From Spirochaetia bacterium (GTDB lineage: Bacteria; Spirochaetota; Spirochaetia; JABMQR01), in contig JAIPFR010000007.1 of NCBI GenBank assembly GCA_021736525.1, forward strand, positions 1 through 34,269: 34,269 nt of DNA, read 5' to 3'. The position numbers and the translations under genes were made by a program. The notes beneath the pieces are model-generated. The model was not told where the DNA came from. It did no database searches and saw nothing but the letters and a program-made list of their open reading frames with translations. Numbering within the stretch: the stretch's first letter is position 1; every line of letters starts with the position of its first letter. Below, piece after piece: positions 11,019-24,909 of the stretch.

Positions 11019-12605
11019 TCAACGGGCAAGTAAAGCAATTTCCGGAATAAGCTGATCCGCGGTAAAAATACCGGCTTTTTCATAGAGCTCCTTACCTGCT
11101 TTCTGGTGTATAACTGCTCCAGTACAGGCGGCAGTATACGGATCCATACCTTGGGCTGCGAGACCTGCAATACATCCGGCCAGCACATCACCAGATCCTG
11201 CAGTACCCATTGCCGGATTCAGCCCCTCCAGTACCGCCAGTTTCCCGTCAGGAGAAGCTATATAGAGCATGTGGGCCTTATAAACTACCGTGCAATGATG
11301 CATTTCTGCAAAAACACGCACAGCTTCAGGTATTTTCTCAGGAGTCTTCTTTGTGCTTATGCCGGAAAGACGTTCAAATTCACCGGGATGAGGAGTCAGT
11401 ATCAGTGCCCCTTTTTTCTCCCCTTCCACTTCCCCTTCCACTTCCCCTTCCCCTTCCACTTCCACTTCCACTTCCACTTCCACTTCCCTTCCCCTGCTCC
11501 ATGCATCGGCACCTGATGGATGGGTTTTCAGTAATTCACTGAAAAGAGTCAGTGCGTCGGCATCCAGAACAACAGGAACAGAGCATTCAAGAAATTGCAG
11601 CAGCTGTCGGCGATTACTCTCATTCAAGCCCCACCCCGGTCCAGCTAGAACAGCATTGTAAGAGGCTGACAGCTCAGCAGCCGAAATAACATCTTCGCTC
11701 CGTTTACGGGTTATAACCGAGGGATTGGCCGCGACCGCAGCTGGATAGACTTCTTCTTCTGTGTACAGGGTTACCAATCCTGCCCGAATGTGCAGCGCCG
11801 CTGAAGCAGCAAGAACTGCCGCTCCGGGAGTTTTGGCAGACCCTGCAAACACCGCAGCAGTTCCTCTTGAATTCTTAAAATCTGATTTCAGCATAGGGCT
11901 CAGGGAAACAACATCTGGCGGCAGTAAAAAAGCTGCTTCCTTTGCCTCCAGAAGGAGATCGGGCGGGAACCCGGGATTAACAACCTCGATCTGTCCACAG
12001 AGCTGCCGGTTATGGGGAAGATAAAAAGGTGTTTTTGGAAGTCCCATGGTAACCGTCAGATCTGCGGGAATTACCAGAGTCTCAGCCCCACCAGTCGCGT
12101 ACATACCGCTTGGTATATCAACTGCTATAATAAAAGCTTTCAGCAGGCCATCTGCCCTGCCGGTGGAACAAAACTCTACAACTTCCTTTGCCGGCCCGCG
12201 AACAGCCCCGGAAATCCCTGTACCAGTAATGCCGTCAACCATTATATCTGCAGAAAGAAGGACTTTCCGTGCAGCAGGCTCACCCCATACCATAACAGGA
12301 ATCCCCAGCTTACGGCATATTTCCACCTGCATAGAGGCTATATCATTGAGTTTCTCCCTGATCAGTACTATTGATATACTACAGTAACCGGCAATAGCCG
12401 CTGCCCTGGCAGCAGTCATAGCATCCCCGCCATTATTCCCGGGACCTGCCAGAAAGACAATATTGGCGCTCTGAGAGCAATACGCCTGTACTGCATTGAA
12501 GACAGCCGTTCCAGCCTGTTCCATAAGAAGGATGCCGGGTATACCGTACTGCTCCTGTGCTTTCTTATCCACCATGCTCATGGTATCGGGAGTTACAATT
12601 TTCAC
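11019..12605 (-). CDS. nnr: Bifunctional NAD(P)H-hydrate epimerase / ADP-dependent NAD(P)H-hydrate dehydratase
   Basis: N-terminal epimerase (LMEQAGTAVF, FLAGPGNNGGDAMTAAR) and C-terminal kinase-fold dehydratase (ILTPHPGEFERLSG, GTAGSGDVLAGCIAGL). GTG at 12605 with AGGAGG upstream preferred as start. Confidence 0.9.
   Translation of the reverse strand: MKIVTPDTMSMVDKKAQEQYGIPGILLMEQAGTAVFNAVQAYCSQSANIVFLAGPGNNGGDAMTAARAAAIAGYCSISIVLIREKLNDIASMQVEICRKLGIPVMVWGEPAARKVLLSADIMVDGITGTGISGAVRGPAKEVVEFCSTGRADGLLKAFIIAVDIPSGMYATGGAETLVIPADLTVTMGLPKTPFYLPHNRQLCGQIEVVNPGFPPDLLLEAKEAAFLLPPDVVSLSPMLKSDFKNSRGTAAVFAGSAKTPGAAVLAASAALHIRAGLVTLYTEEEVYPAAVAANPSVITRKRSEDVISAAELSASYNAVLAGPGWGLNESNRRQLLQFLECSVPVVLDADALTLFSELLKTHPSGADAWSRGREVEVEVEVEVEGEGEVEGEVEGEKKGALILTPHPGEFERLSGISTKKTPEKIPEAVRVFAEMHHCTVVYKAHMLYIASPDGKLAVLEGLNPAMGTAGSGDVLAGCIAGLAAQGMDPYTAACTGAVIHQKAGKELYEKAGIFTADQLIPEIALLAR
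11421..11486 (-). repeat. Hexanucleotide microsatellite inside nnr
   Basis: Eleven consecutive 6-mers on + strand: CCCTTC (x4) and CACTTC (x7), in phase with codons, encoding Glu-Val/Glu-Gly dipeptides. Confidence 0.95.
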
Positions 12606-12738
12606 TTGAGCGGCCTCCTCTTGTCTGCTGGTAATTCTACCAGTTGATTTTGCCAGAGTCAAACATACATCAGTTCAAGTTGCATTATTGCGATTCTTTC
12701 AGTAATCTTATAGTATGTGAGCAATATAGAGGAATCAG

Positions 12739-19942: not shown

Positions 19943-21397
19943 TTAAAGAATATACCGGCTCAAATCTTGATTCATTACAATACCGGCCAGCCTCTCATCA
20001 ACATATTCACTTGTTACTGTTACTGTCTGACCGGCTAAATCCGATGCTGTAAAGGAGACTTCATCAAGCAGGAGTTCCATGATCGTCTGAAGTCTCCGGG
20101 CTCCGATATTTTCAGTCCGGGAATTTACCTCAGCAGCTATCGAACCCAGACGCTGAATTGCCCCTTCTGTGAAAATCAGCTCGACATCCTCGGTTCTCAT
20201 CAGTTCAACATACTGCCGGGTTATAGCATTCTCAGGCTCCGTTAAAATCCGGCAGAAATCAGCACTTGTCAGGTCTTCAAGCTCAACTCTGATTGGAAAT
20301 CTCCCCTGAAGTTCAGGAATCAGGTCGGACGGCTTGCTTATATGAAAGGCTCCCGCTGCAATGAATAATATATGTGACGTGTCTATTATACCATACTTTG
20401 TACTGACTTTCGATCCTTCTACAATCGGAAGGATATCACGCTGTACACCCTCCCGGGAGATATCTGGACCACTTCCCCCACCGCGGCTGCCGGAGGTCAC
20501 TTTATCAATCTCATCAATAAATATAATGCCCATCTGCTCAACTCTCTCCCGGGCTATGTCAGATGCATTATCGGTATCAATCAGCTTTTCCATTTCTTCA
20601 TCAAGGATGATTTGTCTGGCCTGTTTTACTGTCACATGCTTTTTCTTTTTTTTCGCGCCAAAGATGCTGCCCAGACTGTTAAGGGCATTCTGCATATCTT
20701 CCATATTTCCGCCGGCAAAAAGCTCTATGCCCTTTGGTCCTCGTTGAGAAATATTTACATCAATCTCTCGGCTGTCAAGTTTGCCGTCTCTAAGCATTTT
20801 ACGAAATTTATCCCGTGTAGTAGTCTCGCCTCCCGAAGCAGCATCTCCAACTGCCGACTCTCTGGCTGCCTGTCCGCGGTCATCTACCACAAAGACATTA
20901 CGGCTGTTCTCTTTACCGGCTTGTTCTTTGTTTTCCTGCTTCCCTACTCCAACCCCGACACCGACACCTGGCAGAAGAAGATCAAGGATATGCTCCTCAG
21001 TATTCCTCTCTGCTGTTTCACGGACATTTTCTGCCAATTCACTTTTTACCATCGAAACAGCTACACTCATAAGGTCACGGACCATAGATTCTACATCGCG
21101 ACCGACATATCCTACTTCGGTGAATTTAGTAGCTTCAACTTTAATGAACGGAGCACCGCTCAATTTTGAGAGTCTTCTGGCAATTTCAGTTTTACCGACC
21201 CCTGTAGGGCCGATCATTATGATATTTTTCGGCGATACTTCGTCTCTGATATCGTCAGGAAGTTTTTTACGGCGAATCCGGCTTCTCAATGCAATGGCAA
21301 CAGCCCGTTTTGCCTTGTCCTGGCTGATAATATATTTATCAAGTTCCTCAACTATTTCTGCCGGGGTCATGGTGTCAAGATCTTTTCTATTGGTCAT
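19943..21397 (-). CDS. hslU: HslU ATPase subunit of HslUV protease
   Basis: MTPAEIVEELDKYIISQDKAKRAVAIALRSRIRR; IGPTGVGKTEIARRLSKLSGAPFIKVEATKFTEVGYVGRDVESMVRDL; FIDEIDKV; adjacent to hslV. Confidence 0.96.
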   Translation of the reverse strand: MTNRKDLDTMTPAEIVEELDKYIISQDKAKRAVAIALRSRIRRKKLPDDIRDEVSPKNIIMIGPTGVGKTEIARRLSKLSGAPFIKVEATKFTEVGYVGRDVESMVRDLMSVAVSMVKSELAENVRETAERNTEEHILDLLLPGVGVGVGVGKQENKEQAGKENSRNVFVVDDRGQAARESAVGDAASGGETTTRDKFRKMLRDGKLDSREIDVNISQRGPKGIELFAGGNMEDMQNALNSLGSIFGAKKKKKHVTVKQARQIILDEEMEKLIDTDNASDIARERVEQMGIIFIDEIDKVTSGSRGGGSGPDISREGVQRDILPIVEGSKVSTKYGIIDTSHILFIAAGAFHISKPSDLIPELQGRFPIRVELEDLTSADFCRILTEPENAITRQYVELMRTEDVELIFTEGAIQRLGSIAAEVNSRTENIGARRLQTIMELLLDEVSFTASDLAGQTVTVTSEYVDERLAGIVMNQDLSRYIL

Positions 21398-21982: not shown

Positions 21983-22888
21983 TCACCCGTGCGGATGACT
22001 TTTCCTGTAGACTTCCTTTAATCTCTTTGAACTGACATGGGAATAGATCTGTGTTGTTGATATATGCTCATGACCTAACAGTTCCTGTACCACCCGTATG
22101 CCGGCATCGTTTTCCATAATATGGGTTGCAAAGGTATGTCTGAACGTATGCGGAGTAATATGTTTAGGTATGCCAAGCTCAGCTGTATATTTATTGAATA
22201 TGTAATGCACTCCCTGAGAAGACATTCTCCTTCCCCGATTGTTGATCAATAGTGCTTGGCGATCTTCCTGGCTGACTGGTCTTGTCTCCTGTCTTCTCCC
22301 TCGAAGAGGAAGATACACATCCAGTATTTCATGGGCTGAAGGGGTAATAAATACAAATCTGTCTTTTCCTCCCTTTCCATGAACTAGAACCGAATTTTCT
22401 GACAAGTTGAGATCTTTCAGGTTCATACCCGTTAATTCCGATAATCTGCAGCCTGTTGAATAGAGCATTTCGAAAATCAGCCTGTCGCGTATGCCGGAAA
22501 AATCATTACCGGCAGCAGCAATCATGCGCTGAACTTCTTCCCGTGTCAGAACCGCCGGCAGTCGTCGTCCTCCGCTTAAATTGTTTATTCTGGAGAAAGG
22601 ATCTGCCGCACAATAGTCGAATTTCACGCAATATGAGAAAAACCCTTTTACTCCCGAAAGAATTCTATTTACACTGTTCGGTCGGTAACCCGCCTTCATA
22701 AGTTTTGCTATAAATCTGCGGGCCTGCTCATTGGACATCTTTTCAGTGTCAATCTCGTTTTCAACACAAAATTGATGAAGCTTAGCCAAATCCTGAGCAT
22801 ATGCTTCCAGCGTTTTCTCAGAAACGCCCCTCACATCATCGAGATAGTTGAGATAAAGCTCCATCATTTCATTCATGATACAATTCAA
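21983..22888 (-). CDS. xerC: Tyrosine recombinase, XerC/XerD family
   Basis: [59 protein letters not shown]. XerC versus XerD not resolved by eye. Confidence 0.85.
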
Positions 22889-23898
22889 CCTGTGCAGTGT
22901 ACTTTGTACCAGGTATTTTGAAAACGGCAGTAATTCCCGTCACACTTTCCCGATGCCAATAATTTGACTCTGCGCAGTTCCGGCCCCCAAGTAACTATTT
23001 GATTCAGTTCAGGTACACGACCCGGGTCCCAACCCCAATCACTGCACACCTCATGCATTGAAGATAGTACGGGAGCCCCTTCTTCGGCAAGTCTTTTCGT
23101 ACCGCCCGATAGCGGAGATTTCAGTCCTACACGATGGATGTAAACATCCCGCCCCTGCTCGAGAGCATAGTCTGCAGTAATAAGCGATCCTGATCGTTCT
23201 GGAGCTTCAATAATGCATACAGCTCTGCTCAAGCCGCTGATGATTCGGTTGCGAGAGGGAAAATGCCACCGCAGCGGGGGTTCCAAAGGTGGAAACTCGC
23301 TGATAATACCGCCGCCGTTGGCTAAAATACGTCGTGCCAGACCGCTCGAAGCCGCAGGATAAATCCGTCCTATACCGCTTCCAAGAACGCTCCAGGTCCC
23401 CCCGAAGGCTTCGGCTGCGGCAGCTCCGGTCTGGGCAGCAAAGTCTATTCCAGCCGCAAGACCGGAAATTACCGGTATACCCAGTCGGGCTGCTTCAAAG
23501 CCCAGTCTGAAGGCCGCCTGTTCGGACTTGTGCAATGCCTTTCGAGTTCCAACGATGCCAAAGGCAGGAACCGATACCGATGGAAGGGTGCCGAAATAAT
23601 AGAGAACATAGGGTGGATCGAAAATCTCTCTCAACATTGCCGGATAGACCAGGTTGTCGAGACATACCGCTGAAGCGTGGTGACCTTCAATCCATCGAAA
23701 TATATCCTCAGCTTCCTTGAGAATTTGAGGAGGATCATAATGCTTTATCCTGATCGGCCGGCGTAGGAGTATCTGCAGTTCATATTGACTGATCTTATTG
23801 AGTGCGTAGGCATCGGGCAGTTCTGAGGCAAGCGCAGAACGTTCGGAACTTTTAAGATTGGGAATTCTGCTGACAGTTAATTGAATTAATGAAATCAT
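22885..23898 (-). CDS. dprA: DNA-processing protein DprA/Smf
   Basis: Rossmann-like DprA core: FGIVGTRKALHKSEQ, VISGLAAGIDFAAQTGA, VLGSGIGRIYPA, SEFPPLEPPLRWHFPSRNRIISGLSRAVCIIEAPERSGSLITADYALEQGRDVY. Confidence 0.93.
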   Translation of the reverse strand: MISLIQLTVSRIPNLKSSERSALASELPDAYALNKISQYELQILLRRPIRIKHYDPPQILKEAEDIFRWIEGHHASAVCLDNLVYPAMLREIFDPPYVLYYFGTLPSVSVPAFGIVGTRKALHKSEQAAFRLGFEAARLGIPVISGLAAGIDFAAQTGAAAAEAFGGTWSVLGSGIGRIYPAASSGLARRILANGGGIISEFPPLEPPLRWHFPSRNRIISGLSRAVCIIEAPERSGSLITADYALEQGRDVYIHRVGLKSPLSGGTKRLAEEGAPVLSSMHEVCSDWGWDPGRVPELNQIVTWGPELRRVKLLASGKCDGNYCRFQNTWYKVHCTG

Positions 23899-23900
23899 GA

Positions 23901-23954
23901 TTTTCTCCTTGCAAAAAAAGTCTTATATATAAAGACTCAGAAGAAAGGAGAAAA
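23901..23954 (-). promoter_or_regulatory. Nested hairpin sequestering the dprA Shine-Dalgarno sequence
   Basis: Minus strand: TTTTCTCCTT (23954-23945) is the exact reverse complement of AAGGAGAAAA (23910-23901), which contains the dprA SD; nested AGTCTT/AAGACT hairpin (23937-23932 / 23924-23919). Confidence 0.65.
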
Positions 23955-23985
23955 AATTCAGTTTTTCAATATTTTCTTAAAATAT

Positions 23986-24909
23986 TCAGTTTGATTTTGT
24001 TTTCTCACCATTAGCACCCGGATGAAATTCATTAAACTGGCTTTGCAGATGACTTCGATCTATATGGGTGTATATTTGCGTGGTACTTATGGAAGAGTGT
24101 CCCAGCAGTTCCTGGACAATCCTCAAATCAGCTCCTCCGGAAAGAAGGTGTGTGGCATACGAATGTCGCAGAGTATGTACTTTTGCCGATAATCCTGCAT
24201 CTGCGGCATATTTCTTGAACCTGACCCAAAGACTCTTCCTGTTAAGCGGTTTTCCCAGTGCAGACAGAAATACTGCATCATTTACAGTTTTTGCATTGGC
24301 AAGATGGGGTCTGGATTCCTTGAGATATACCTTCAATTCTGCTGCCGCTCGCCTGCCCAAAGGCAGAAGCCTCTCCTTATCCCGCTTGCCAACAACCCGG
24401 ATCAGTTCTTCCTCCATAATAACATCACCCATATGCAGGCCTACCGCCTCGGAAGCGCGGAGTCCGGCAGAATAGATTAGTTCAATTAATGCCTTATCAC
24501 GGATTCCAAGAACAGTTGAGGTTGGAATCACATCCAGGATACGTTCAACTTCGACCAGCTCCAGAACATCAGGAATAATTCTGCCTGACTTCGGGGACTC
24601 AAGCTTATCCGATGGATTGTCGTTTCTAACCCTCTCTTCGATGAGAAACAAACAATACGAATGGATAATTGAGAGAAGTTTGGCAGTTGTCCGCCGGGCT
24701 GTCTTCCCACGGGTGCGTTCTGAAACATACTGTATCAGGGTAACCGAATCAAAGGAGTCCGAAGAAACATTCCTTTTATCAAGATAATTGAGGAACCTGC
24801 GAGTCTCTTGAGTATACATACGTATTGTTGAAGAGGAAAGGCGTCGCTCAAGTGTCAGGTAATCTTCATAGGCTTCAAGCAGACTGCTGCTCACCGTAAC
24901 CGACAGCAT
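23986..24909 (-). CDS. xerD: Tyrosine recombinase, XerC/XerD family
   Basis: LIYSAGLRASEAVGLHMGDV, VHTLRHSYATHLLSGGADLRIVQELLGHSSISTTQIYTHI. XerC versus XerD not resolved by eye. Confidence 0.85.
   Translation of the reverse strand: MLSVTVSSSLLEAYEDYLTLERRLSSSTIRMYTQETRRFLNYLDKRNVSSDSFDSVTLIQYVSERTRGKTARRTTAKLLSIIHSYCLFLIEERVRNDNPSDKLESPKSGRIIPDVLELVEVERILDVIPTSTVLGIRDKALIELIYSAGLRASEAVGLHMGDVIMEEELIRVVGKRDKERLLPLGRRAAAELKVYLKESRPHLANAKTVNDAVFLSALGKPLNRKSLWVRFKKYAADAGLSAKVHTLRHSYATHLLSGGADLRIVQELLGHSSISTTQIYTHIDRSHLQSQFNEFHPGANGEKTKSN

Follow-up and report, generated by a model that had tools for sequence, protein, structure and literature searches.

In streptococci, the ComX/SigX regulon places comEC, dprA, recA and other DNA-processing genes under one promoter motif, the SigX combox TACGAATA, and in Haemophilus and Vibrio the CRP-S (Sxy) regulon unites dprA, comM and comEC-type genes through a dyad activator site upstream of the core promoter. 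Promoters of the σW-type ECF class in Bacillus subtilis read TGAAAC-N16/17-CGTA and have a pyrimidine- or T-rich spacer. At the RNA level, a hairpin in the sxy mRNA of H. influenzae provides an example of leader structure in a competence gene. In phage T4, the ribosome-binding sites of I-TevI, soc and e are buried in long transcripts and free in short ones, and the hairpins responsible have been tested (PMC2988022). ComEC, DprA and RecA act in transformation (PMC6299819). Our search of open-licence papers found no described competence regulon of a spirochaete.

Here we analyse the 87-nt gap between an xerD-like gene and dprA (23985-23899, minus strand) in a stretch of 34,269 nt, referred to as the window, from a spirochaete MAG belonging to an uncultured family (Table 1). 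The sequence of the gap matches that quoted in the first-pass annotation. Sequence comparison suggests that its 5′ half likely serves as a promoter of a predicted competence-like regulon, and the motif found there most likely switches on dprA as one of a group of competence-like genes. Family comparisons cover four genomes, namely, the window genome (G000) and its congener G001, together forming genus g1, and two members of the sister genus g2 (G002 and G003), which are all the genomes of the order in the sample. Two other readings of the gap were rejected on inspection: a σ70 −10 element at TATATA has no −35 to match and is not among the sites listed by the sequence scan, and the 6+7+6 repeat does not fit the 11+6+11 arrangement of a dif-like Xer recombination site. 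Elsewhere in the window, short repeat tracts were noted in an NAD(P)HX epimerase/dehydratase-like ORF (11019-12662, EVEVEVEVEGE) and in an hslU-like ORF (19943-21397, GVGVGVG).

Table 1. Features of the xerD-dprA region in window coordinates
Feature	Position	Strand	Basis
xerD-like tyrosine recombinase gene, upstream of dprA	23986..24909	-	ORF; Pfam PF00589 E 7e-45, PF02899
28-bp motif TGAATTTTTTCTCCTTTCTTCTGAGTCT, proposed promoter; -35-like TGAAT 23960-23956, GT of -10-like part 23936-23935	23960-23933	-	PWM 31.5
Outer stem, 5′ arm TTTTCTCCTT (anti-SD); within pyrimidine-rich motif spacer	23954-23945	-	sequence and fold
Inner hairpin, 5′ arm AGTCTT; overlaps 3′ end of motif	23937-23932	-	sequence and fold
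Predicted dprA transcription start, ~23924	23926-23922	-	inferred from 8-nt motif-to-ATG spacing of leaderless members
Inner hairpin, 3′ arm AAGACT; begins at the predicted transcription start	23924-23919	-	sequence and fold
T6 run after inner hairpin	23918-23913	-	sequence
Outer stem, 3′ arm AAGGAGAAAA; SD AAGGAG at 23910-23905	23910-23901	-	sequence and fold
dprA	22885..23898	-	ORF; Pfam PF02481 E 1.5e-60
xerC-like gene for a second tyrosine recombinase, next after dprA	21983..22876	-	Pfam PF00589 E 2e-43

The 5′ half of the dprA leader is conserved throughout the four family genomes and aligns without gaps as TGAATWTTT...GTHW. A covariance model of the leader matched a second site in the congener, where the same 5′-half primary sequence occurs without a matching Shine-Dalgarno (SD) arm, and a subsequent pattern scan yielded additional sites. 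Six early sites, namely the dprA leaders of the four genomes and two sites associated with transposase-like genes, were combined into a 29-bp pattern. It had 18 matches in the four genomes versus 2 for the reversed control, and a looser pattern had 62 versus 24; one match, located inside an ORF (G003:C397), was dropped as chance. When the PWM was run over the 34-kb window, the dprA site scored 31.5 and the runner-up 9.2, the PWM sites having been collected with patterns partly seeded on dprA, and only the comEC sites of G000-G002 being strictly independent. The motif consists of TTGAATWTTT, a 17-nt pyrimidine-rich spacer and NNGTHW with an invariant GT, and has no dyad symmetry. TGAAT and GT are the same in all 15 ATG-proximal sites and lie about 36 and 12 nt before the ATG, respectively; typically, the motif ends exactly 8 nt before the start codon.

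The genes found behind the motif include several of DNA uptake or recombination. Each of the four genomes has a TGAAT...GT site in front of comEC (Pfam PF03772), and its end always lies exactly 8 nt from the ATG. The first of these sites emerged from the motif scan in G003 (PF03772 E 1e-33; PWM score 22.6) and is part of the PWM; the other three were found out of sample via the Pfam model and score 18.4 (G002), 16.2 (G001) and 3.4 (G000). The comEC site is the best PWM site within 3.2-3.8 kb in G001, G002 and G003, whereas in the window genome, which has the lowest of these scores, the middle of the site has drifted, with TGAAT, GT and their spacing kept. The motif also stands before yraN/UPF0102 in four of four genomes, further upstream of comM/YifB in three, and, in both g1 genomes, before recA (104-106 nt upstream) and before a gene for an ExeM/NucH-like nuclease lipoprotein; a RecQ-like helicase gene and two lipoprotein families are preceded by it as well. 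At yraN, the nuclease, the lipoproteins and the helicase, as at comEC, the distance to the start codon is usually 8 nt. One motif is shared, at promoter distance, by the DNA-uptake genes dprA, comEC, comM, yraN and recA. For an integron integrase gene (TIGR02249 E 3e-54; L205, G003:C354) the distance between motif and start is 40 nt, and its membership would link integron recombination to the regulon as well. Given that several transposase-like or Rpn/YhgA-like genes (L166, L167/L177, L206, L197, L179, L252) are also among its members, the regulon is not purely one of competence; the mobile genes may have adopted a competence promoter.

From the computed motif, its recurrence, spacing and neighbouring genes, we infer promoter activity, a start site, the sigma type and co-regulation. 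The promoter reading is preferred because the motif has two invariant blocks, a spacer of about 17 nt without a dyad, and a fixed distance to the ATG at leaderless genes. In a different reading, the motif would be bound by a regulator that activates or represses, such as one of SOS type or one of competence, and would not be a contact of an alternative sigma factor. Genes such as recA, RecQ-like helicases and integron integrases are often damage-regulated, and these targets would also fit a damage response, whereas comEC, dprA, comM and yraN, together with the secreted nuclease, favour DNA uptake. The weakness of the −10-like part, which is short and unlike TATAAT, speaks for a regulator site, but the fixed 8-nt spacing to the ATG in most members, the two invariant blocks and the 17-nt spacer without a dyad fit RNA polymerase better, and we regard a regulator site as rather improbable. 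Under the promoter reading, the conserved −35 and −10 blocks and the fixed spacing of the 15 ATG-proximal sites are consistent with an ECF-type promoter. A gene for an ECF sigma factor with a neighbouring zf-type anti-sigma factor is conserved in all four family genomes (L214, L215, L216, L217) and, in the two genomes that were read, is flanked by cysS-like and valS-like genes. This sigma factor is a candidate reader of the motif. ECF sigma genes are often autoregulated, but a motif scan of the four genomes found no site before this sigma gene, and autoregulation through the motif is accordingly unsupported.

As in the streptococcal SigX regulon, one motif, here a proposed promoter, is common to comEC, dprA, recA and other DNA-processing genes. 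The spirochaete motif differs from the combox in being TTGAAT-N17-NNGTHW, in being associated with predicted mRNAs that are mostly leaderless, and in having a candidate regulator only. In contrast to the CRP-S site, it has no dyad and is located at core-promoter distance. With the σW-type ECF promoters it shares a TGAA-containing −35, a similar spacer length and a GT-containing −10; however, it has TGAAT in place of TGAAAC, and the conserved ECF gene lacks an autoregulatory site.

The mRNAs of the regulon would mostly be leaderless, starting at or beside the ATG. For dprA, the predicted start at about 23924 falls downstream of the anti-SD arm, and the mRNA would have a 26-nt leader with an open SD, because such a start leaves out both 5′ arms of the hairpins; the predicted cost of opening the SD is 3.7 kcal/mol in this short mRNA versus 10.75 kcal/mol in the long RNA. 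The anti-SD arm itself would be the CT-rich promoter spacer, naturally complementary to AAGGAG, and only RNA that reads through from the ftsZ-xerD operon could fold into the 10-bp lock. The first-pass annotation had proposed that dprA is controlled separately from the upstream division genes by means of the hairpin. Separate control gains support from the promoter-like motif, whereas the hairpin as its means does not.

The hairpin is nevertheless real and moderately unusual, although within reach of a T/C-rich leader lying beside a purine-rich SD. Both parts of its initial description, the dprA SD and spacer held in a perfect 10-bp stem and a second hairpin inside this stem followed by six T, were borne out by sequence and fold, the inner hairpin having 6 bp. 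A 96-nt stretch of the leader has an MFE of −21.0 kcal/mol (z −2.86), a value reached by 2 of 200 shuffles, with z-scores from −2.7 to −2.9 across runs. Opening the dprA SD costs 9.8 kcal/mol; none of the 25 window genes compared has a higher value, and among 394 spirochaete genes dprA ranks fourth, the median over all genes compared being 2.9 kcal/mol (these backgrounds were drawn from fetched loci rather than from the whole genome). Shuffles that keep the composition of the T/C-rich dprA leader itself give a stem of at least 10 bp over the SD in 18 of 4000 dinucleotide shuffles (0.45%); the opening cost is at least as high in 41 of 2061 (2%).

Conservation of the arms in relatives had been named in advance as one test of the hairpin, and here the outcome is divided. 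In the congener, whose DprA is 96% identical, both outer arms are intact, and the changes within the stem turn U-A into U.G, so that pairs are kept as one-sided G.U; an inserted A adds one inner pair. Intergenic gaps of the two genomes are about 90% identical in general, however, and the conservation of the arms in the congener is therefore not informative. When random mutations of the same kind were simulated, the fold survived equally well in 14-18% of runs, and the SD opening cost did so in 48-59%. In genus g2 the 10-bp lock is absent or weak, even though the 28-bp motif is kept. Since the G.U-only changes of the congener match random mutation and the lock is missing in g2, the lock lacks support from covariation. 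In a wider comparison, 16 dprA genes located downstream of xerD-type genes have their SD more buried than 378 other genes (p 0.0007), a comparison made post hoc on related sequences, but another 57 dprA genes of the class did not repeat the result (p 0.44). In the first set, behind xerD-type genes, unrelated hairpins often cover part of the SD (L007, L024, L030, L032). In three other dprA leaders (L031, L045, L052) the SD is part of a short conserved palindrome, GGTAAAGGAGATTTTTACC, immediately in front of the ATG.

What the hairpin does, if anything, can be judged against these data. A thermosensor, as considered in the first-pass annotation, would profit from an SD and spacer that are wholly paired, but temperature folding predicts an open fraction of only 1e-7 at 37 °C and 2e-5 at 60 °C, and the structure is missing from g2, which makes an RNA thermometer on dprA extremely improbable. 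The riboswitch suggested alongside it found no support either: Rfam gave no covariance-model match to the leader at E<=1, and the structure is absent in g2. The third idea, that the inner hairpin and T6 form a weak terminator or attenuator between xerD and dprA, is weakly supported at best and in our judgement very unlikely. The T run does follow the hairpin directly on its 3′ side in minus-strand orientation, and the hairpin energy is retained in the congener (−5.9 and −6.2 kcal/mol); on the other hand, the stem (−5.4 kcal/mol) is AU-rich with only 2 G-C pairs, a terminator scan did not report it among its sites, Rfam had no match, and the inner hairpin is not kept in g2. More serious is a selected translational silencer that buries the SD in long fts-xerD transcripts and leaves it free in short ones. 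It is compatible with the promoter explanation and would have the layout of the T4 late genes and homing endonucleases (PMC2988022), where an internal promoter lies inside the hairpin region and only read-through RNA forms the lock; at dprA, however, this layout is predicted only, and conservation of the lock stops at one genus. Similarly, H. influenzae sxy is a competence gene with a leader structure that could limit translation, but the gene, structure and organism differ, and dprA shows no covariation. The predicted difference in opening cost between long and short RNA, the rarity of so good a stem among shuffles and the intact, pair-keeping arms of the congener argue for selection, whereas the weakness or absence of the lock in g2 and the ease with which simulated mutation retains structure and opening cost argue against it, as does the complementarity that a CT-rich spacer and a purine SD yield for free. 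The CTCCTT arm sits within a motif that also precedes genes without any SD. We therefore hold a selected silencer to be possible yet unlikely. Doubtful, too, is the more elaborate proposal that the family has a promoter class of its own for competence, probably under an alternative sigma factor and yielding mostly leaderless mRNAs of comEC, yraN, a secreted nuclease and others, in which the dprA spacer doubles as an anti-SD arm silencing read-through DprA, so that the protein would be translated from the competence promoter only. It is likely, by contrast, that the SD-arm complementarity arose by chance or composition and has no function of its own, while the promoter may still be real. The shuffle frequencies are those expected of leaders of such composition, and dprA genes of the class are generally not locked; the more buried SDs of the 16 dprA genes mentioned above speak on the other side. 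Any function of the lock is thus putative, and the lock is probably in the main a by-product of the promoter spacer.

Many dprA genes of Sphaerochaetales have no SD and carry TGAAGCA, GAAGCA or a similar box 35-36 nt before the ATG, overlapping or adjoining the xerD stop codon (L006, L014, L016-L019, L021, L036-L038, L040, L041). These genes look leaderless with a conserved −35-like box, which may represent the same system with a diverged −35.

At a general level, the locus illustrates how a promoter spacer rich in pyrimidines can incidentally give rise to a convincing RNA lock. For this uncultured family, a motif joining ComEC, DprA, ComM, RecA, YraN, a secreted nuclease and an integron integrase predicts natural transformation, and it supplies exact promoter sites and a handle on the regulator.
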